Assembly (NCBI RefSeq): GCF_965363235.1
Contig: NC_134843.1
Span: forward strand, 88,631,795-88,695,794
Origin: Mytilus galloprovincialis
Lineage: Eukaryota; Mollusca; Bivalvia; Mytilida; Mytilidae
Direction: 5' to 3'
DNA length: 64,000 nt
The position numbers were made by a program, and so were the translations under genes. Positions 1,047 to 40,955 of the stretch are shown piece by piece. The stretch's first letter is position 1, and each line of letters starts with the position of its first letter. The notes beneath the pieces were generated by a model. It did not search any database, was not told the DNA's origin, and was given only the letters and a program-made list of their open reading frames with translations.

Positions 1047-3075
1047 AACTCAGCAGATAGCTATTACAGGTATCATCAACTCAGTAGGCAGGTATCATTA
1101 ACTCAGTAGCAAGTATTATCAACTCATTAGGCAGGTATCATTAACTCAGTAGCAAGTATTATCAACTCAGTAGGCAGGTATCACCAACTAAGTAAGCAGG
1201 CATCATTAACTCAGTTGGCATGTATCATTAACTCTGTAGGCAGACATCATCAACTCAGTAGGCAGGTATCATCAACGCAGTATACAAGTATCATCAATTC
1301 AGTAGACAGGTTTCATCAATTCATTAACTCAGTAGGCAGGTATCATCAACTCAGTAGGCAGGTACCATCAACTCAATAGGCAAGTATCATCAATTCAGTA
1401 GACGGGTATCATCAACTCAGTAGACGGGTATCATCAATGCAGTAGACAAGTATCATCAACTCAGTAGACGGGTATCATTAATTCGGTAGACCGGTATCAT
1501 CAACTCAGCAGATGGGTGTCATTAACTCAGTAGACAGATATCATGTACTCTGTAGACAGGTTTGTCATCAGACAGGTATTACCAACTCAGTAGACAGGTA
1601 TCATCAACTCAGTAGGCAGGTACATGTATCATCAATTCAGTAGACGGGTATCATCAACTCAGTAGACGGGTATCATCAATGCAGTAGACAAGTATCATCA
1701 ACTCAGTAGACGGGTATCATTAATTCGGTAGACTGGTATCATCAACTCAGCAGATGGGTGTCATTAACTCAGTAGACAGATATCATGTACTCTGTAGACA
1801 GGTTTGTCATCAGACAGGTATTACCAACTCAGTAGACAGGTATCATCAACTCAGTAGGCAGGTACATGTATCATCAACTCAGTAGGCAGATATCAACTCA
1901 GAAGGCAGGTATCACCAACTCAGAAGGCATGTGTCATCAACTCAGTAGACAGATATTATCAACTAAGTAGACAGGTATCATCAACTCAGTAGGCAGCTAT
2001 CATGAACTCAATAGACATGTAACATCAACTCAGTAGACAGGTATCATCAATTCATAAACGCAGTAGACAGGTACCATCAACACAGTAGACAAGTATCATC
2101 AACTCGGTAGGCAGGTTTCATTAACTCAGTAGACAGGTATCATCAATTCGTTAACTCAGTAGGCATGTATCGTCAACTCAGTAGACAGGTATCTTCAACT
2201 CTGAAGACAGGTATTATCAACAGAGTAGACAAGTATCATCAACTCAGTAGACAGGTACCATCAACTCAGTAGGCAGGTATCATCAACTCAGTAGACAGGT
2301 ACCATCAACTCAGTAGACAGGTACCATCAACTCAGAAGGCAGGTACCATCAACTCAGTAGACATGTACCATCAACTCAGTAGTCATGTATCATCAACTTT
2401 GTAGGCAGGTACCATCAACTCAGTAAGCATGTATCGTCAACTCTGTAGGCAGGTACCATCAACTCAGTAGGCAGGTACCATCAACTCAGTAGACAGATAC
2501 CATCAACTCAGTAGGCAGATATCATCAACTCAGTAGGCAGGTACTATCAACGCAGTATACAAGTATCATCAACTCAGAAGACAGGTATCATCAATTCGTA
2601 ACTCAGTAGGCAGGTATCATCAACTCAGTAGGCAGGTACCATCAACTCAATAAACAAGTATCATCGACTCAGTAGACAGGTATCATCAAAGTATACCAGT
2701 ATAATCAACTCAGTAGGCATGTATCATCAACGCAGTAGACAAGTATCATCAACTCAGTAGGCAGGTATCATTAACGCAGTAGACAGGTATCATCAACTCA
2801 GTAGGCAGGTATCATTAACGCAGGAGACAGGTATCATCAACTCAGTAGGCATGTATCATCAACTATGTAGGCAGGTACCATCAACTCAGTAGGCAGGTAT
2901 CATCAACTCAGTAGGCAGGTATCATCAACTCAGTAGGCAGGTATCATTAGTGCAGTAGACAGGTATCATTAGTGCAGTAGACAGGTATCATCAACTCAGT
3001 GGGCTTGTATCATCACCTCAGTAGACAGGTATCATCATCTCAGTAGACGGGTATCATCAACGCAGTTGACAAAGA
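1047..3075. repeat. 22-bp minisatellite, about 90 units
   Basis: A tandem array with consensus close to 'caactcagtaggcaggtat' plus 'cat' (22 bp) runs for about 2 kb. Units differ at a few positions: aggcag/agacag, tatcat/taccat, actcag/acgcag. It has no open frame of any length. A few units are interrupted or shortened (for example near 1318 and 2590). The left edge decays gradually from about 1047 and the right edge stops near 3070. Confidence 0.95.
1391..1874. repeat. 242-bp higher-order duplication in the minisatellite
   Basis: The block starting at 1391 is repeated almost base for base from 1633, an offset of 242 bp or exactly eleven 22-bp units. Irregular units (including the odd 'tttgtcatcagacagg' stretch) are shared by both blocks. 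This shows a recent segmental duplication rather than unit-by-unit convergence. Confidence 0.85.
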
Positions 3076-5400
3076 TTCGGTAAGAAATGTTTTTAAAAAA
3101 ATTGTTGATAACATTAAAATTATAATGAAGCTAAGGTTCCAAATCCCTCATGTGAAGGCGTTTGACCTTAGCTTAATTTTACTTTTTTTTTCTTTTTCAT
3201 AATACCTCTTCACGTGTTTAAGTCTTAGAAATACTTCATATATAAAAGGCTCCGAATATAAAATAATTCAATAGAGAATACTAACGGCCATAATCTACGA
3301 AAAACAAATATGAGAGACGTGGACCAACACCGAACAACCTTTGAACTATAAGCTCCTGACTTGGGACAGGTACATATGAAGAATGTGGCGGGATTATACA
3401 TGTAAGTGAGCGCCCAATCCTTCCCTAACCTGGGATAGTGGTGTAACAGCATAACATAGGAATACACTATAAAAATCAGTCGAAAAGTCTTAACTCATCA
3501 AATCGAAGGAATCGGAGGTCAAAAACTATTACTCACATAGGAAAGGTATTGCTAAACAGACAATTTCAATGACAAAAAAAATAAAGGTAGTTGGTTAAAA
3601 CCTGGTTTACTTAAATCAAGCAACTCCTAGTAAAATATTTCCAACCATAAGTGTAGGATGCGCTATCAATCTGATTATTATATTCCAATCTATCTTTACT
3701 TGCATACTCGTCAAATTTATGAGCAGAATAAAATTACATGTATTTCCAATAGATTAGATCAGGACCGCCTACATAATTTATCTCTGTAAGAGTTGTTTCA
3801 AGTATTCTTTTCCGTACAGAAATTGTATCCTGATACCCTCCCTTGAGGTATTGAATTTACGTCCCCATTTTTACAGGACGTGGCTGCATATTTATACATC
3901 CCTCTTTAGCATAGCCCCGGTTTTACTACCATACAGACAGACGAAGTCCTAGCAATTTGATAATACAAAATTGATTGACTTAAATTGCACAATACATTAC
4001 TTGACCGGTATAAGTAATATGCTCTCGATTAAATTTGGTTATTATAAGAAGAAATTCATTTTTGTTTTACACGAGTGTCCATTGTATTGCTTTTTTAGTA
4101 TAATATGACAAAGAATTAATATCTTTATTTCATCATAGTATATAATTCAGTATACGACTGATATGCTGGCGGTTATTGAAAACAAAATCTTCGATCTTCG
4201 ATTTTTTTTAAAAGATATTTTTCAAACATCAAACCAGCTATACATACATAAACAGTGATCTAAAGTTTGAAGGATTTAGTTTATAACAGAGATTAAATGC
4301 CTCAAATAATAATGAATAGAAAAAATTCTTAAATAAATTTAAGCAATAATAGGGTGCAAAGCCACGGTATAAAGAATAACTGTGGGAAATAAAAGAATTA
4401 ACGTTAGATAATATAATAGTCAGAAACCAGGGACATAATATTGACAATCACAGAAGAAATTTTATGTACAGAAAAAAGAAATTAAACATTTACAAAAACA
4501 AAAGACAAAAGACAAATATTTATTGGCTCAAAATCATAAAAACTGAATGGTTAAGATCTATTGCATTTTAATGAGTTACAGAATAAATTGACATATGATA
4601 CAATGAAAAGTTACATATCAATCTTTCTTAATATTACAATATTCCTCATAAGATATATGTTTAGACACTTGAATTATTTATATAGTAAAAATCAGTTTCG
4701 TGAGAATTTTACAGCATTATTTTTAAAAAGTAGAGAAACTTGCTCCAAATTTAAAGAATTTAGAAATTGGGGACCCAATCCAAACTCTCATAAGGATAAT
4801 GATTCACAAATTATTCAACTGTAAGCTTACACATAAAATAACAAAATTTAAAAGAAAAACAAAAAATTATTGATTGCTTGTTTGTTGTGTAATTCCCAGT
4901 GCAAATATTTCTCGCATATTTGAAAAAGAGCATGCATGTCGTCAAAATGAAATTGGATATCCTGCATTTATAATGCTTTTCAATGACGTGATAAAATCGC
5001 AAAAAGACCCCATTCCAGCATTCTGCATTGACAATAATATCTTGGTGAAGATACATCCATTCGGACTATCGCCCTCAATGTGTATCCGATATACATGTAA
5101 TCTGGAAACTAAAAAAATACATCTGACCACTTGTGCCTCTATGGTTATAAATACCGAATTACGGCCATTCCTCAACCATTCATGATCATTCAGTTTTGTT
5201 TTGCATTCGATAAGAAAATGTCTTTTACGGAAGAACATTCTGAATTGGAATTGATTAATTTGTTTAAAATTTTTTTTTAACCTATAAATCATTTCGATGG
5301 CATCTGGAATAATATGTCAGGTTGACCTGGTTACCAAAGGTCAACGTATGCTTGTTTGTAAAAATATATGAATGAAATAGTTCCGTATTTATGTATTGAT
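3076..5400. other. Non-coding region upstream of TRIM71
   Basis: AT-rich sequence. A fragment related to repeat A lies at about 3340-3480 ('ctcctgacttgggacagg', 'aacctgggatagtggtgtaac'). Overlapping short frames on both strands at 4874-5292 show no recognisable domain and are probably chance. I see no RNA gene. Confidence 0.5.
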
Positions 5401-5474
5401 TTTGATTGGTTGAATGTGGCACATTGACCGCAGAAAAATTTGTTTAAACACGCCTCCTATTGATGAGGGAGAAA

Positions 5475-5550
5475 ATGGCGTCTTGCACAGGGCGAACGGA
5501 ACTTTTACAAGATATGAAGTTATTGCGTATATTTCAAAACTGAGTCGATT
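5475..5550 (+). promoter_or_regulatory. Candidate TRIM71 5' leader exon with a 22-codon uORF
   Basis: An ATG at 5475 in a moderate context opens a 22-codon frame that stops at 5541-5543. Seven bases later, at 5551, stands a strong splice donor (GTAAGT). This is the layout expected of a 5' untranslated exon. A possible acceptor AG lies at 5677-5678, without a good pyrimidine tract. If the 128-bp intron is used, the two in-frame stops at 5673-5678 are removed and the TRIM71 frame would be open to the exon edge. Transcript evidence would decide this. Confidence 0.35.
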
Positions 5551-5747
5551 GTAAGTTTACCTTATCGCAATTATAACATAACAACATTTATTACTATAAA
5601 CTTTTACATGTAATGGGATCCGTGTGAGAATGAATGACTAAAACACATATTTGGAAGGTTACCAAGTGTCCATAATAGTCGACCTCGTTTTGTGAGCAAG
5701 ACAAATCGCCATGTAGGATCACAAACACCTCGGTTTTCCAAACCAAT

Positions 5748-5755
5748 CTACCTCA
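5748..5755 (+). promoter_or_regulatory. let-7 seed match (8-mer) upstream of the TRIM71 start
   Basis: CTACCTCA is the full 8-mer complement of the let-7 seed. It lies 26 bases before the TRIM71 ATG, in the presumed 5' UTR. The seed match is seen directly; regulation through it is inference. Confidence 0.35.
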
Positions 5756-5768
5756 TCAGGCTCATGAA

Positions 5769-5775
5769 CTACCTC
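5769..5775 (+). promoter_or_regulatory. let-7 seed match (7-mer) upstream of the TRIM71 start
   Basis: CTACCTC, the 7mer-m8 let-7 match, ends five bases before the TRIM71 ATG. It is 21 bases downstream of the 8-mer at 5748, a spacing within the range at which paired sites can cooperate. Confidence 0.3.
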
Positions 5776-5780
5776 GCCCA

Positions 5781-8099
5781 ATGGCCGCATATTCGGAGTC
5801 AGTCGGGGAGCAGTTGGCGTGCCCTGTTTGCCTCAATAGAATTGACGATCCTCGAATCTTGCCCTGCCTTCACTCATTTTGCAGGCGATGTTTGGAACAG
5901 GCTATCAATAGGGATCAAGGACAAGATCAAGGTGTACTTCAGTGCCCAACATGTCAACAAAGTGTATCACTGGGACCTGAAGGTATTGATAATCTTCCTT
6001 CAAATTTGTTTGTTTCGAATTTATTTGAGGCGATGGTACAAAACGAAGACTACGAAACTAATGGAGAGAGGCCTATCACGGGGACAAGATGGTGTAGTTC
6101 GTGTGAGGAAGGCAGTAAAGCAACAGCTGTGTGTAAAAATTGTAATGAATATTTGTGTGATAACTGTGTGATGGCACATCAACGTGTGCGATTGACTAAA
6201 GATCATTATATTGAACGTCTGTTAATGAACCGTAGTAGACCACATTATAGTTCACTTGCTGCTCCCTTAAGTTCACCTTCACTCCCACATAACATACAGC
6301 TTCCAGATTCTTTATCAAACAGTTGCCCAAGACATGAACATGAAATTCTTTGTTTTTTCTGTGATACCTGTTCAGTTGCAATATGTCGTGAATGCACCAT
6401 GGTTGATCATATTGGACATAATCGTATCTACCTCCATGATGCTGTTGAAAATTCAAAAGCCATCACTGTGCGACTTCTTACTGATGCAAAACTGAGTATT
6501 AAAGCATTGGAAGAAGGTATTGAAAATTCACAAAATATGGCTGAACATACTGAAGTAAGATCCCAGGCAGTAGCAAATGAAGTCCGTGCAACAACTCGAC
6601 GCCATATGATTGCATTGGAGGAAAGAGAACGTGATTTACTCAGACATGTAGAAAAGGTTAGACAGGTTAAGGGAAAATCATTGCATCTGCAAATTGACGA
6701 TTTAAAGCAAGGTCTTTCATCTCTTATGCAAACTGTTGATCATGTTGAAAACATGCTGAATACGGGTACTGATATGGACTCAATCAATGCAAGGGACATA
6801 ATTGTGAATGAAATGCAAAATGTGCGCAAACTCCGAGGTCATTTACAACCTCATGAGGATGATAACATTGTGTTTACACCTCCTGATGCTGCTTTATACA
6901 ACGCTATCAGCAAAATGGGAATAATAAGCAGCAGTGCATATGCACCGAACTGCATAGCAACAGGTGATGGCTTGAAAAAAGCATTAAAAGGGAAGGTTGC
7001 AATGTGCATGATTCATGCCAAAGACCACCATGGAGAGCCAAGAATGATAGGTGGAGATCCTGTTGAATGTATAATACAAAGTCCTGAAGGTGCTTTGTAT
7101 AGGACTGAAGTTCTTGATCGTCAGAATGGAACATATACCATATCGTATCGTCCACAAATGGAAGGAAAACATATCATTTCTATAACAATTCGTGGCAAGC
7201 ATATTGCAGATAGTCCCTTTGTAGTGCAAGTAAGAAGTGGTCGAAACTATATGACAGTTGGACAGCTTTTTCTTCAGTTTGGAGGAGAAGGAGAAGAGGA
7301 GGGCAAGTTTTGTCGTCCATGGGGAGTATGTTGTCATAAGGATAATTACATAATTGTTGCAGACCGAAGCAACAATAGAGTTCAGGTGTTTAACCCCGAC
7401 GGCACCTTTCATCATCGGTTTGGATCTGCAGGAACAAGGCCTGGGCAATTTGATCGACCAGCAGGTGTTGCTTGTGATTCACAGGGAAATGTTGTCGTTG
7501 CAGATAAGGACAACCATAGGATCCAAAAATTCACTATTGATGGCAATTTTCTTATAAAATTTGGTGAAAAAGGAAATAAAAATGGCCAATTCAACTATCC
7601 ATGGGATGTTGCACTAAATTCTGAAGGAAAAATATTAGTTTCAGATACACGAAACCATCGTGTACAATTATTTAGTGCCGAAGGACAATTCTTAAACAAA
7701 TATGGATTTGAAGGATCCTTATGGAAACACTTTGATTCTCCAAGAGGTGTATGCTTTAATAATGAAGGACACATGGTTGTTACTGATTTTAACAACCATC
7801 GTTTACTTGTGATACACCCTGACTTTCAAACAGCAAGATTTCTTGGAACAGAAGGTTCTGGTAATGGACAGTTCTTGCGTCCTCAGGGAGTAATTGTAGA
7901 TCAAGAAGGTAACATTATAGTCACAGATTCCAGGAATCATCGCATTCAAGTATTTCAGCCAAATGGCAACTTTATGTGCAAGTTTGGAACACCCGGTACA
8001 GGTCCAGGTCAAATGGATAGGCCTTCAGGTATTTGTTTAACCCCAGAGGGGCTTCTTGTTGTTGTTGATTTTGGAAACAATCGTGTACAGTTATTTTGA
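5781..8099 (+). CDS. TRIM71: TRIM71 / LIN-41 E3 ubiquitin ligase and mRNA repressor
   Basis: The 772-residue protein is complete. In order: RING finger (about 14-58, Cys14/Cys17/Cys29/His31/Cys34/Cys37/Cys55/Cys58), B-box 1 (about 105-145), B-box 2 (about 183-215), coiled coil (about 225-340), filamin/Ig domain (about 365-490) and six NHL repeats forming the C-terminal propeller (about 500-772). Short runs identical to vertebrate TRIM71 as I recall it (AHQRVRLTKDHYIER, KHFDSPRGV, TDFNNHRLLVIHP) set it apart from TRIM2/3 and TRIM32. Family role: cytoplasmic E3 ligase that binds hairpins in target mRNAs through the NHL propeller, represses them, and acts in developmental timing and stem-cell proliferation. 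The RING, which is degenerate in human TRIM71, is complete here, and the whole frame is one exon. The ATG at 5781 leaves a short leader before the RING. Frames at 5692-6171 and on the minus strand are shadows. Confidence 0.97.
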   Translation: MAAYSESVGEQLACPVCLNRIDDPRILPCLHSFCRRCLEQAINRDQGQDQGVLQCPTCQQSVSLGPEGIDNLPSNLFVSNLFEAMVQNEDYETNGERPITGTRWCSSCEEGSKATAVCKNCNEYLCDNCVMAHQRVRLTKDHYIERLLMNRSRPHYSSLAAPLSSPSLPHNIQLPDSLSNSCPRHEHEILCFFCDTCSVAICRECTMVDHIGHNRIYLHDAVENSKAITVRLLTDAKLSIKALEEGIENSQNMAEHTEVRSQAVANEVRATTRRHMIALEERERDLLRHVEKVRQVKGKSLHLQIDDLKQGLSSLMQTVDHVENMLNTGTDMDSINARDIIVNEMQNVRKLRGHLQPHEDDNIVFTPPDAALYNAISKMGIISSSAYAPNCIATGDGLKKALKGKVAMCMIHAKDHHGEPRMIGGDPVECIIQSPEGALYRTEVLDRQNGTYTISYRPQMEGKHIISITIRGKHIADSPFVVQVRSGRNYMTVGQLFLQFGGEGEEEGKFCRPWGVCCHKDNYIIVADRSNNRVQVFNPDGTFHHRFGSAGTRPGQFDRPAGVACDSQGNVVVADKDNHRIQKFTIDGNFLIKFGEKGNKNGQFNYPWDVALNSEGKILVSDTRNHRVQLFSAEGQFLNKYGFEGSLWKHFDSPRGVCFNNEGHMVVTDFNNHRLLVIHPDFQTARFLGTEGSGNGQFLRPQGVIVDQEGNIIVTDSRNHRIQVFQPNGNFMCKFGTPGTGPGQMDRPSGICLTPEGLLVVVDFGNNRVQLF
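6428..6434 (+). promoter_or_regulatory. let-7 seed match inside the TRIM71 CDS
   Basis: CTACCTC is a 7mer-m8 match to let-7, within the codons of B-box 2. Coding-region sites are usually weak, so this counts only as part of the local cluster. Confidence 0.2.
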
Positions 8100-8513
8100 A
8101 TATTGTTATTTCTTGCTTGCTTTTTCCCTATAAGGGTAGGCACCATTCAATGTTATTGAATAAGAGAATTATAGCAATCAAGTTCATGGTTCAGGAAAAG
8201 AAAACAGTTTCAGAAACTGCATACTTTGACTCTTGTACACTCTACCATACTCGCGCTTGATATAAAAATGCTTGGTAATAGGAATATGATGACTGGCTCG
8301 TTGTTAAATTTGCATGAATGTGAATGCTAAAAGCATTTTGCAGCACTTGTATAAGTCAGATTGTTTTGCTTTTGGTTAACTGAGTTAGCTTGAAGTCTGA
8401 ACTTGATTGTTTTATACTCAGAGTAAAGCTTTGTCTTTTTTTCTTTATTGTCATTATTATTGTCGCTAAAAGTGATAGACTCAGGTTTATTTTCACATGC
8501 CAAAGGCACAAAG

Positions 8514-8521
8514 CTCAGGGA
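8514..8521 (+). promoter_or_regulatory. miR-125/lin-4 seed match (8-mer) in the TRIM71 3' UTR
   Basis: CTCAGGGA is the full 8-mer complement of the miR-125/lin-4 seed, 415 bases after the stop codon. TRIM71/lin-41 is an established target in the let-7 and lin-4/miR-125 circuit in other animals. The site is seen; its use is inferred. Confidence 0.5.
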
Positions 8522-9221
8522 ATTAGTTGTGTTTTCAGCATTCATGCATGTTATTTTTGAGAGATTAAGGCTTATATACAGATAATCTAGGTATCAGTGT
8601 CTAGTGTCTTGGGTGTATGAAAGACCACGAAAAACCAGTACCAAAAAATTTACTACATGTAATTGTTGGAATATGACACCTACAATGTAATGTCAGATTT
8701 TAATGATTAGAAAAAATCATACAATTTTTATTTAAAGAAAAAGTTATAATTAAGAGTAGGAGATCAAGATATACATTACTTTTCCAGTTTTCTTCAATAA
8801 GTCACATAAGTGATACTAACAAGTATGTACTGCAACAAATTTAAAATGTTTTTATTTTAAGTTTTGGGTGGCTTATTTAATTGATAATTTCTTAAAAATA
8901 CACGAATCAATCTGCATTATAGATGTATTTTAAATTTCTTTAATAAATAGTCTCCAAAAAAAACTTTCATACAAATGTTGTACATGTACATGCATGTAAA
9001 AAAAAATCCCTATTAAAAAATACAACCGCTTTAACATGCAATTTAAAAACTTCTAAAATAAAATTATAAATTCTATATGGATTACAAATTGAATTAACAA
9101 AACATATATATTTTCCATTAGGTAACCAAGATATAAAACGTTTTTAAAACAATATATATCATGAAAAGACTTAAGACAAAACAAGTGGGTAATTTTATTA
9201 AAAAATAAAGGCCAGAAAAAG

Positions 9222-9228
9222 CTACCTC
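9222..9228 (+). promoter_or_regulatory. let-7 seed match (7mer-m8) in the TRIM71 3' flank
   Basis: CTACCTC lies 1.1 kb after the stop, just past a possible polyadenylation signal near 9205. Whether it is transcribed depends on how far the 3' UTR extends. It is the only 7mer-m8 let-7 match I found between the stop and the minisatellite at 13.9 kb. Confidence 0.4.
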
Positions 9229-11175
9229 TGTCAAGCATTGTGCATGATATTCCTTAAAATGAATGTTTACATTAGTTGCTAAGGGAAACATGACCATGAC
9301 TATATCTATGCTGATCAAACATTTCATGTTAATCCAAGCAGGGAACTTGGTCAGTAAATAAAAATGATATAATATATTGATATACAATCTTGCCCATAAT
9401 TCAAAACTTATAGAAAATTTGTTAATACATGTATGTACCATTCAGGAATTTTACTTTATGTATTAGATTTTTACTTGTTATCACTAGGGTATTACAAAAA
9501 CTTGCTGGTAGTTTTCTTGAGCCTTTTTTCAATAAAAAATCTGCATGATAAGGATGCAAGTTTTGAGAATGTGTTATATGTAGGTTGTATGAGAAAGAGT
9601 TTGCTATTTTTTTTAGACACTGAACTTATTATTAATTAGTATTTCAGATTTTTTTCTTTCTTGCATAAATGTATATGATTGATCGATCCTTTGGCATATA
9701 GTTTTTAGTGAAATTGCATTTCCAAATGTTGAATATTTTGTAGACTAAATGGTATTGATTTTAGTTCAGCAATATTTTTTTAAAAGGTTTATCAGTGTGT
9801 AGTGAGATTGTTTTAAGTTAAATGGGGAATTGAACTTGAATTCTAGAAATACATATAACATTTGTTAGTGCAGTCTATCCTACAAATTGTAGAAAAAAAG
9901 AAAGCTGAATATTTCCTAGTTTAGTTAGTGTTTTTTTTTCTCATATGACCATCAGATGTTTAGTCAGTAAAGGACCTACGACTTAAAGATTTTTTGGAAC
10001 ATTTTTTTGTAAAAATGAAAGGGGGTTAAATGTCTTAAACATGTATATCTTTGGGAGTGCCAGCTTAAGTAGCCATTGCAGATTTGGAATATTAAAATAT
10101 TGTTCTTTAAATACATTCTTTACATTTCTTATATTTGATTTCTATCTTAAATTAATTAATAAAATACAATACACTAATAAAAATATAATTATATAATCTA
10201 TTATTACTTATTTAAATAGAGCAATGTATTTGTTTCACCTTTAGTAACCTCAATGGCTTATTGTTAATTTTTAGGCTTGGAATTAATTAATTTCCCATGG
10301 TAATGTGGATATCCTGTTGTTTACAGTTATCTTTGCCAGATTTTTGACATAACATTTTCCTTTGCCCTCCAGCTTGAATTGGACATGCATATTAAGCTGG
10401 ACATTCCCATGTGATAGGTCATTTTGGGCCTTCTCTTGGTATTTAATGGTCATAAAAACACTCACATGACCTGGTCACTAAATGAGATCATCTGGGTCAG
10501 AGAGTTGTTTACAATGTTTGACCACATTAGATTTTGACTTTGTAGTTTTGATAAATAGAAATGTTTCTTCAATTTTTTTGGACAAAAAGAGATATATGAA
10601 ATTAAAATTAAATTAGATTTAAGGGGTTTATATAATTGAAACACAATTTAAATCATGAAATTTTATTTAAAGTCACTTAAAAAGATACATTTGAAGAGAT
10701 TTGAGTTTTTTTTAACTTGAAAACAAATATACATGTACTGTATGGTGAAGGGGTTATTTTATAAACATGCTTTTATCACTTTTATAAGTGAGAAAATTTG
10801 ATGAATGATTGATGAGAACTGTTTGATTTGTTTGAAGTATTTTATTCACTGGAAAATGTTTAAGATTTTTGTTATAAATATTAGTGTAGTATATATATAT
10901 AATAATCTAGCTTTTAGAATGGAATATGTGTTTGTTTCGTTTTTTTTTATTCGATATTGCATTTCCGGTGCTTGTTAAAAAAATATGTGCTTGTATTTGA
11001 CTATTTTTGCATGTTCTTGAAAAGCATTGTTTGTGATCATGAGAAAGATAGTATATCTTTACATTTATTGTTAGGGTATATGATATCCTTCTCCTTTCAT
11101 TGTTTGTTACTCATTTGTATGTACAAGAGTTTTACAAAAACTCTTCTTTCAATTTCGAAATAACAGCCTTTAAAG

Positions 11176-13901: not shown

Positions 13902-15430
13902 TCTCATTGGAGTATTCCCTACACCCCCTTACAATATACATGTAACTCAGAATAGATCATTAGAGTATTCCCTACACCCCCTTACACTATACATGTAACT
14001 CAGAATAGATCATTGGAGTATTCCCTACACCCCCTTACAATATACATGTAACTCAGAATAGATCATTGGAGTATTCCCTACACCCCTTACAATATACATG
14101 TAACTCGGAATAGATCATTGGAGTATTCCCTACACCCCCTTACAATATACATGTAACTCGGAATAGATCATTGGAGTATTCCCTACACCCCCTTACAATA
14201 TACATGTAACTCGGAATAGATCATTGGAGTATTCCCTACACCCCCTTACACTATACATGTAAGTCAGAATAGATCATTGGAGTATTCCCTACACCCCCTT
14301 ACAATATACATGTAACTCAGACTAGATCATTGGAGTATTCCCTACACCCCCTTACACTATACATGTAACTCAGAATAGATCATTGGAGTATTCCCTACAC
14401 CCCCTTACAATATACATGTAACTCAGACTAGATCATTGGAGTATTCCCTACACCCCCTTACACTATACATGTAACTTAGAATAGATCATTGGAGTATTCC
14501 CTACACCCCCTTACACTATACATGTAAGTCAGAATAGATCATTGGAGTATTCCCTACACCCCCTTACACTATACATGTAACTCAGAATAGATCATTGGAG
14601 TATTCCCTACACCCCCTTACACTATACATGTAACTTAGAATAGATCATTGGAGTATTCCCTACACCCCTTACAATATACATGTAACTCAGACTAGATCAT
14701 TGGAGTATTCCCTACACCCCCTTACACTATACATGTAACTCGGAATAGATCATTGGAGTATTCCCTACACCCCCTTACACTATACATGTAACTTAGAATA
14801 GATCATTGGAGTATTCCCTACACCCCTTACAATATACATGTAACTCAGACTAGATCATTGGAGTATTCCCTACACCCCCTTACAATATACATGTAACTTA
14901 GAATAGATCATTGGAGTATTCCTTACACTATACATGTAACTCGGAATAGATCATTGGAGTATTCCCTACACTCCCTTACAATATACATGTAACTCAGAAT
15001 AGATCATTGGAGTATTCCCTACACCCCCTTACACTATACATGTAACTCAGAATAGATCATTGGAGTATTCCCTACACCCCCTTACAATATACATGTAACT
15101 CAGAATAGATCATTGGAGTATTCCCTACACCCCCTAACAATATACATGTAACTCAGAATAGATCATTGGAGTATTCCCTACACCCCCTTACAATATACAT
15201 GTAAGTCAGAATAGATCATTGGAGTATTCCCTACACCCCCTTACACTATACATGTAACTCGGAATAGATCATTGGAGTATTCCCTACACCCCCTTACAAT
15301 ATACATGTAACTCAGAATAGATCATTGGAGTATTCCCTACACCCCCTTACAATATACATGTAAGTCAGAATAGATCATTGGAGTATTACCTACACCCCCT
15401 TACAATATACATGTAACTCAGAATAGATCA
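13902..15430. repeat. 53-bp minisatellite, about 29 units
   Basis: The unit begins 'ggagtattccctacaccccc' and ends 'agatcatt'; it includes 'tacatgtaa'. Units are very similar and differ mainly at 'acaatatac'/'acactatac' and at 'aactcag', 'aactcgg', 'aagtcag' or 'aacttag'. Some units have one C fewer, and one near 14910 has lost about nine bases. The array is bounded by unique AT-rich sequence on both sides. Confidence 0.97.
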
Positions 15431-15807
15431 TGGATAAACATAACATATTGAATAAAACCCTCCACCTCCTCTGTAAGTTATAAACTATATAAATCAGGTA
15501 ATAGCATATCCGTACCTCATTTGATGTGTCTCAGGAATAACAGTAAATCTTTTAACATCACTTCTTTGAAACATTTGTACCTCATTTTAGCTTATATATT
15601 ATATACATACAGTTATATATACAATTGTACATTATCTTATGTTTTAAGTAATATTACACAAGATAACAATCAGTAGAAATACCTCTAATATTGTACTCTC
15701 ATATGTCATCCTAACCCTTTTGTTATAAAAACCCCAAACATGCTTTATTTATCTCTTTCTCCTAAATGATCATCAAAAGTTCTGTCATTAAATGGTTCAG
15801 ATAATGG

Positions 15808-39767: not shown

Positions 39768-40955
39768 TTAATGTAATGTAAGGGTGCTCTTTCTTATTGT
39801 TGTAGATAAAAATGGATTTGGATCAGGCTCTTCTTTCATTATGTCAATTTTGATCCACTCTTTTGATTTGTTTGACTTTCTTATTGCATCAACTACTGTT
39901 TGAACATATAAAGAATCTTCAAAGTTAGCTGCAACTTTAACAGGGTCTTGACAATAGCTTTGTCTTTCCTCTTCTTTTTCAAAAGCATCCTTGACTGACT
40001 CAATTAATCTGATGATTCCCTTTAGATATGGTGTTGGAATTTCAGCTCTAGTTTTGTCTGATACGCCATAACGTTGTTCCTCCTTGAAATTAACTGGATC
40101 AAAGTGCAGAAGTTCCTCCTTCAAAGAGTCATTTTTCTGACCATAGAGATCTGCTCCTCGGATTGTAAGTCTACCTTTGCTTCCTACTAGCATTATTTCC
40201 TGGTTAAAAGGTCCATGGATGTGACTATTAATTGTTAAGGTAGCACAGGATCCATTTTCCAACTCTAGTTGCGCAGAACAGAAATCATCACTGGTGATTT
40301 CCCGGATCCCTTTAATCTTGTCAGTTTGTTTTGTGTATGTTTTCAGCATACCATGTACTCGGACAGCTTTCTGACCCGTAAGGTGTGTTATTAAATCGAT
40401 GATATTACTTCCAATCGTGTTCAGAACACCTCCTCCCATGGTTTCATCACACATCCAATCAAAATGTTCTTTTGGTTTCTTTTCATAATGAATACGAATT
40501 TCACAAATTGATATGTCTCCTATATAATCTTTGTCAATATACTGTTTCAGTTTAGCAATCGTAGGTAAGAATCGAAGTCCAAAGACTACAAGAGACATTA
40601 GCTTTGGATAATAACTGGCTGCATTCACCATTTTTAATGCATCTAGTTGACTAGGTCCTGCAGGTGTACCACATAAAACATGCTTTCCTATTCCTAAGGC
40701 TTTGATTGTAATTGCTGACTGGAGATGAGGAGGACAGCTAATTACCACTACATCAACATTTCTGTTTAAAAGAATTTCATCAACTTTGACTGCACAAAAA
40801 GGAATATCAAGTTCGGCAGAAAGTCCAGTGGCTTCTTCTTTAGTTCTACCCCATAATGCAACTACTTGGAAGCCACATGATTTAAGAAGAGGGACATACG
40901 AACGGACAGATGCTGGAGTTCCAATGACGCCTATACCTGGGAGCATTTTCCTCAT
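39768..40955 (-). CDS. GFOD1/2: GFOD1/GFOD2-like NAD(P)-dependent oxidoreductase
   Basis: The 395-residue protein belongs to the GFO/IDH/MocA family. It has an N-terminal Rossmann fold with a GxGxxG-type loop at the very start (GIGVIG) and a C-terminal alpha/beta domain. Runs shared with human GFOD1/2 as I recall them are LPGxGVxGT, ALWGRTxEEA, YYPKLMS, TGQKAVxVHG, IKGIRxITSDDFC and EEP near the end. Length matches the family (about 385-390). The usual EKP catalytic motif of the superfamily is not present at the expected place (CGTPAG), as in other GFODs, so enzymatic activity is unproven. Vertebrate GFOD2 is reported to act in extracellular-matrix assembly. The frame is intronless here. An in-frame stop lies seven codons upstream of the first ATG (40955); the second ATG (40946, MLPG) matches the family start better and may be the true one. 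Confidence 0.95.
   Translation of the reverse strand: MRKMLPGIGVIGTPASVRSYVPLLKSCGFQVVALWGRTKEEATGLSAELDIPFCAVKVDEILLNRNVDVVVISCPPHLQSAITIKALGIGKHVLCGTPAGPSQLDALKMVNAASYYPKLMSLVVFGLRFLPTIAKLKQYIDKDYIGDISICEIRIHYEKKPKEHFDWMCDETMGGGVLNTIGSNIIDLITHLTGQKAVRVHGMLKTYTKQTDKIKGIREITSDDFCSAQLELENGSCATLTINSHIHGPFNQEIMLVGSKGRLTIRGADLYGQKNDSLKEELLHFDPVNFKEEQRYGVSDKTRAEIPTPYLKGIIRLIESVKDAFEKEEERQSYCQDPVKVAANFEDSLYVQTVVDAIRKSNKSKEWIKIDIMKEEPDPNPFLSTTIRKSTLTLH

Follow-up and report, generated by a model that had tools for sequence, protein, structure and literature searches.

Does let-7, with miR-125, control lin-41 in a bivalve as in other animals, and from which part of the mRNA? The question is raised by a 64,000-nt stretch of Mytilus galloprovincialis DNA (hereafter, the window), for which the original prediction had placed a miR-125 8-mer and a let-7 7-mer downstream of a TRIM71/lin-41 gene and proposed that the heterochronic circuit is wired the same way in this mussel. 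In C. elegans, the key target of let-7 is lin-41, on which it acts by way of two sites in the 3' UTR (PMC6435043). The introduction of PMC4382986 states that 3' UTR sites for let-7 and miR-125 are conserved throughout bilaterians. For the mussel, we consider it likely that let-7 targets the TRIM71 mRNA directly and that miR-125 provides a second input; we infer pairing in vivo and repression of TRIM71 from the sequence.

The window encodes the mussel orthologue of TRIM71/lin-41

The coding sequence (5781..8099, forward strand) is a single, intronless open reading frame (ORF) of 772 aa, whose product comprises a RING domain, two B-boxes, a filamin domain, and six NHL repeats. TRIM71 was distinguished from other TRIM-NHL proteins by the ranking of PDB matches. 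The four top matches are all TRIM71 chains (E-values from 4.6e-190 to 1.4e-151); the best match to another protein is Thin (1e-66), and TRIM3, TRIM2, and Brat likewise fall behind TRIM71. Domain content and PDB matches thus bear out the name given in the original prediction, and the gene is the mussel orthologue of TRIM71/lin-41. The start codon is likely at 5781, given that an in-frame stop at 5676 precedes it with no in-frame ATG between the two. An out-of-frame ATG at 5764, 17 nt upstream of the TRIM71 start, begins a frame of 135 codons (5764-6171) that extends over the start.

The window lies on contig C6 (88631795-88695794) of a 1.385-Gb genome of 331 contigs. In this genome a 50-aa query built from the mussel foot-protein decapeptide matched, with identity of up to 100%, inside a 770-aa open frame, which makes a Mytilus mussel the very probable source. 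We searched the genome for further TRIM71 copies. Among the 69 genome matches listed, for which the best candidates were scored, the window's copy is the sole full-length match, and the other 68 are partial: 66 with 23-46% identity and two 44-residue fragments with 89% identity. Scans of viral_contigs and genome_contigs with the TRIM71 protein, in which the sole animal genome was the window's own, returned no relative. Stretches of ~121-124 bp of TRIM71 NHL-coding DNA, 93-94% identical, were found at L017:2930-3061 (contig C5) and L018:2983-3114 (contig C2). These sit in two copies of a repeat that are 99.4% mutually identical over 4.3 kb; the repeat carries 68-bp tandem repeats and, in L018, inverted arms of roughly 54 nt. 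To judge by this setting, a mobile element seems to have picked up a piece of the gene that is now found on C5 and C2. The window itself contains a degenerate 22-bp tandem array of ~90 copies (1067-3066), ending ~2.7 kb upstream of the TRIM71 start codon, a 53-bp tandem array (13904-15431; 29 copies, 94% matches), and a single ORF of 395 aa on the minus strand encoding a GFO/IDH/MocA family oxidoreductase (39768-40955).

A miR-125 site and a weak let-7 site in the 3' region

Both downstream matches of the original prediction are present. The exact miR-125 match CTCAGGGA (8514..8521, forward strand) is a full 8-mer that begins 415 nt past the TRIM71 stop. The let-7 match CTACCTC (9222..9228, forward strand) is likewise exact; it is followed by a T and is therefore of the 7mer-m8 type, lacking an A opposite let-7 position 1. 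Their frequency by chance was estimated from 2,000 dinucleotide shuffles of the stretch 8100-9560 (1,461 nt, 28.6% G+C), in which a let-7 7-mer occurred in 2.0%, a miR-125 8-mer in 0.45%, and the two jointly in 0 of 2,000. Genome-wide rates give an expectation of 0.038 let-7 7-mers (sense strand) and about 0.007 miR-125 8-mers (6,309 forward matches in 1.385 Gb) for this stretch.

The placement of these matches relative to candidate poly(A) signals bears on whether each is part of the mRNA. The miR-125 site at 8514 lies upstream of all AATAAA hexamers, although the rarer signals TATAAA (8261) and AGTAAA (8422) precede it. One AATAAA candidate (9204..9209, forward strand) lies just 5' of the let-7 match, at 18 nt from start to start. 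At that distance the match falls where cleavage directed by the 9204 signal is expected, so that it may be at or past the cleavage site and would belong to the mRNA only in transcripts polyadenylated farther downstream. Further AATAAA hexamers occur at 8942, 9057, 9357, 9531, and later positions; among 12 signals listed, the one at 9531 is followed by the largest number of GT/TG steps (13). A retrocopy marking the 3' end of the TRIM71 transcript was sought with the stretch 8100-11000 and rejected, since the sole match of this stretch, apart from itself, was a 56-nt stretch with 84% identity. Nor did the C5 and C2 TRIM71 fragments align with the TRIM71 3' region over more than 31 nt. The predicted let-7 duplex at 9222 is the weakest of the four at TRIM71. 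Most controls equal or better it, namely 77% of those with random flanks and 82% of those with a shuffled miRNA tail. We therefore regard the 3' let-7 site as weak, because it combines a position in the usual cleavage zone of the 9204 AATAAA with a lack of 3' pairing.

Additional matches lie upstream of the start codon and in the coding region

The two downstream sites were an incomplete inventory, as matches at 5748, 5769, 6428, 6761, and 7882, all on the forward strand, had been missed. The let-7 8-mer match CTACCTCA (5748..5755) begins 33 nt upstream of the start codon, and a let-7 7mer-m8 match (5769..5775) is separated from the start codon by five nt; the starts of these two are 21 nt apart. 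When the 381 nt upstream of the ATG were shuffled 5,000 times, at least one let-7 7-mer appeared in 0.42% of the shuffles and two in 0 of 5,000. A further let-7 7mer-m8 match lies within the coding region (6428..6434), where 1.2% of synonymous shuffles have one. The coding region also holds an 8-mer match to miR-100 (6761..6768) and one to miR-125 (7882..7889; present in 11% of synonymous shuffles), both predicted to be poorly accessible. Singly, these last two provide no evidence because they are within chance. Supplementary 3' pairing was considered as support for the let-7 matches and set aside: 0 of the 4 TRIM71 let-7 sites pair better than controls outside the seed. As a rule, miRNA sites have less effect in leaders or coding sequence than in the 3' UTR.

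With an 8-mer and a 7-mer beside the start codon, Argonaute would occupy the initiation region. This arrangement invites the reading that let-7 controls mussel lin-41 chiefly from the 5' end, its sites having moved from the 3' UTR into the leader and coding region while the ancient partners were kept, which we hold tentatively and judge unlikely. We also judge unlikely a strictly 3' arrangement, as in the original prediction, in which only the miR-125 site at 8514 and the let-7 site at 9222 act and the 5' and coding matches are incidental. Such an arrangement agrees with the conservation of 3' UTR sites across bilaterians stated in the introduction of PMC4382986, with the scarcity of both 3' motifs in shuffles (0.45% and 2.0%), and with the location of the miR-125 site upstream of every AATAAA. 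It would nonetheless leave let-7 acting through a single 7-mer in the 9204 cleavage zone, with a duplex below most controls, and would dismiss as incidental an upstream let-7 pair that arose in none of the 5,000 shuffles.

The leader could contain an intron running from a GTAAGT at 5551 to an acceptor-like CTACCTCATCAG that ends at 5759, and its removal would eliminate the match at 5748 and keep that at 5769. These elements would also suit an explanation that dispenses with targeting altogether, attributing the matches to chance, the pyrimidine tract of an intron acceptor (5748), codon choice (6428), or base composition. The 3' pairing that is no better than controls, together with the coding miR-125 and miR-100 matches that are within chance, points in the same direction. 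The pyrimidine share of the acceptor at 5759 (0.63), however, equals that of the AGs at 5696 and 5700, and because these nearby AGs have the same share, nothing singles it out.

No 7-mer of the span exceeds expectation as strongly as the let-7 seed match

The number of matches speaks against an absence of targeting. We compared the span 5400-9560 with 600 rounds of shuffling, dinucleotide outside the coding sequence and synonymous inside it. The miRNAs were named beforehand; the span was chosen by us, and the leader length in it is an assumed one. Among the 3,284 distinct 7-mers seen in the span, CTACCTC ranked first, with 4 observed and 0.041 expected (Poisson 1.1e-7; 1.7e-4 for the next-ranked 7-mer). 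The miR-125 7-mer ranked 131 of 3,284 (2 observed and 0.27 expected, P 0.030), and the miR-100 7-mer 361 of 3,284 (P 0.067). The genome-wide rate gives an expectation of 0.107 let-7 matches in the span (P 5e-6, or 1.9e-4 if three are counted), and CTACCTC is itself the rarer 7-mer genome-wide, with 35,754 forward matches versus 48,156 for its reversed control. The rest of the window (118,600 nt, both strands counted) contains two let-7 7-mers. When 40 miRNA seeds were ranked in the same span, let-7 came first, followed by miR-31 (P 0.011), miR-125, and miR-100; 31 of the 40 had no match.

Other match loci in the genome served as controls, with the caveat that they have short flanks, that several represent parts of a single gene, and that their orientation was taken as given. 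In this set, 11 loci (L004-L014) and the longer, overlapping L019 and L020 each hold at most one let-7 7-mer per strand, namely one per strand in L005 and L019 and one on the opposite strand of L011. On the given strand, miR-125 7-mers are absent throughout; the opposite strand carries one each in L006 and L009. The close spacing of the upstream pair was rejected as a genome-wide rarity: there are 660 pairs of CTACCTC within 35 nt, compared with 951 for the reversed control, and tandem repeats are among the places listed for such pairs.

Targeting by let-7 thus has good support from the sequence, in which CTACCTC exceeds its expected count more strongly than any other 7-mer of the span. An origin of the matches in chance, splice signals, codon choice, or composition is judged improbable, since it must accommodate four let-7 7-mers where 0.04-0.11 are expected, and three alone would still give P 1.9e-4. 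It also meets a let-7 8-mer in a LIN28-like gene, described below.

Genes for let-7 and miR-100, and a miR-125 candidate, in the mussel genome

A cluster of miR-100, let-7, and miR-125 is typical of bilaterians, and the mussel has the same gene order on one strand, here on contig C6. The miR-100 and let-7 genes are ~1 kb apart and exceed the Rfam cutoffs, and their mature sequences are identical to the known ones. The miR-125 candidate lies ~34 kb beyond let-7 on the same strand, and this gap sets the mussel arrangement apart from the bilaterian cluster. So does its mature sequence, which has one difference from the known form, at position 12 and thus outside the seed; it is the only genome match at up to two mismatches. 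The hairpin has a z-score of -3.0, and 2 of 200 shuffled sequences folded equally well; against Rfam, the candidate had no match at E up to 0.5. All three genes share a contig with TRIM71, ~76 Mb from it.

A LIN28-like gene on contig C10 was recognized from two matched stretches with 51% and 53% identity, the first of which runs past a stop, where the exon probably ends. A let-7 8-mer (L027:2075-2082; C10:58296074) lies 196 nt past the stop of this gene and upstream of the first AATAAA. It has strong 3' pairing, with six additional paired bases, and a predicted duplex energy of -22.1 kcal/mol; among controls, 2.9% of those with random flanks and 6.8% of those with a shuffled miRNA tail reach this value. 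This predicted site supports let-7 control of a mussel timing gene independently of TRIM71. A corresponding action of miR-125 on LIN28 was considered and discarded, as no miR-125 7-mer occurs from the stop to the first AATAAA; the sole one in the 9-kb LIN28-like stretch follows the stop at a distance of ~5.5 kb, with several AATAAA in between. The LIN28-like gene does not support the miR-125 branch.

A model for let-7 and miR-125 acting on mussel lin-41

We favor direct targeting of TRIM71 by let-7 with miR-125 as the second input. Under this model, the miR-100/let-7/miR-125 region would become active late in development, and let-7-loaded Argonaute would bind up to four TRIM71 seed matches: a pair just 5' of the AUG, a single match within the coding sequence, and one far 3' in long isoforms. 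miR-125 would bind the 3' 8-mer, and the two miRNAs would jointly lower TRIM71 protein. We would guess that the let-7 pair beside the AUG affects initiation and does not work in the customary way through the 3' UTR. A sharp increase of miR-100 following metamorphosis, with a similar trend for miR-125, is reported for a whelk (PMC5714496).

Comparison with known systems reveals both likeness and departure. As in the C. elegans let-7/lin-41 system described in PMC6435043, both partners are present in the mussel. The worm gene has two 3' UTR sites, whereas three of the four mussel let-7 matches are upstream of or inside the coding region and the lone 3' one is weak. PMC6435043 also mentions gain-of-function mutations in the first coding exon of C. 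elegans lin-41 and calls their basis unknown, which we take as a lead only. Relative to the bilaterian lin-41/TRIM71 genes with 3' UTR sites in the introduction of PMC4382986, the mussel has the same protein family, the same two miRNAs, and a good 3' miR-125 site; it differs in having one 3' let-7 match, which may lie outside short isoforms. The proposal of identical wiring is hence upheld with respect to its components, namely TRIM71, the let-7 and miR-100 genes and the miR-125 candidate, and seed matches above chance. It exceeds the evidence with respect to layout, because three of the four let-7 matches are 5' of or inside the coding sequence; the match on which it relied (9222) has the weakest predicted duplex of the four and may be beyond cleavage.

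In searches of an open-access collection, no listed title or abstract opening dealt with let-7 control of lin-41/TRIM71 in a mollusc. In worms, lin-41 is the defining let-7 target. If our reading is true, the mussel case would place the let-7/lin-41 module in a metamorphosing spiralian; if the 5' sites are active, it would represent a conserved miRNA-target pair whose sites have shifted within the mRNA.
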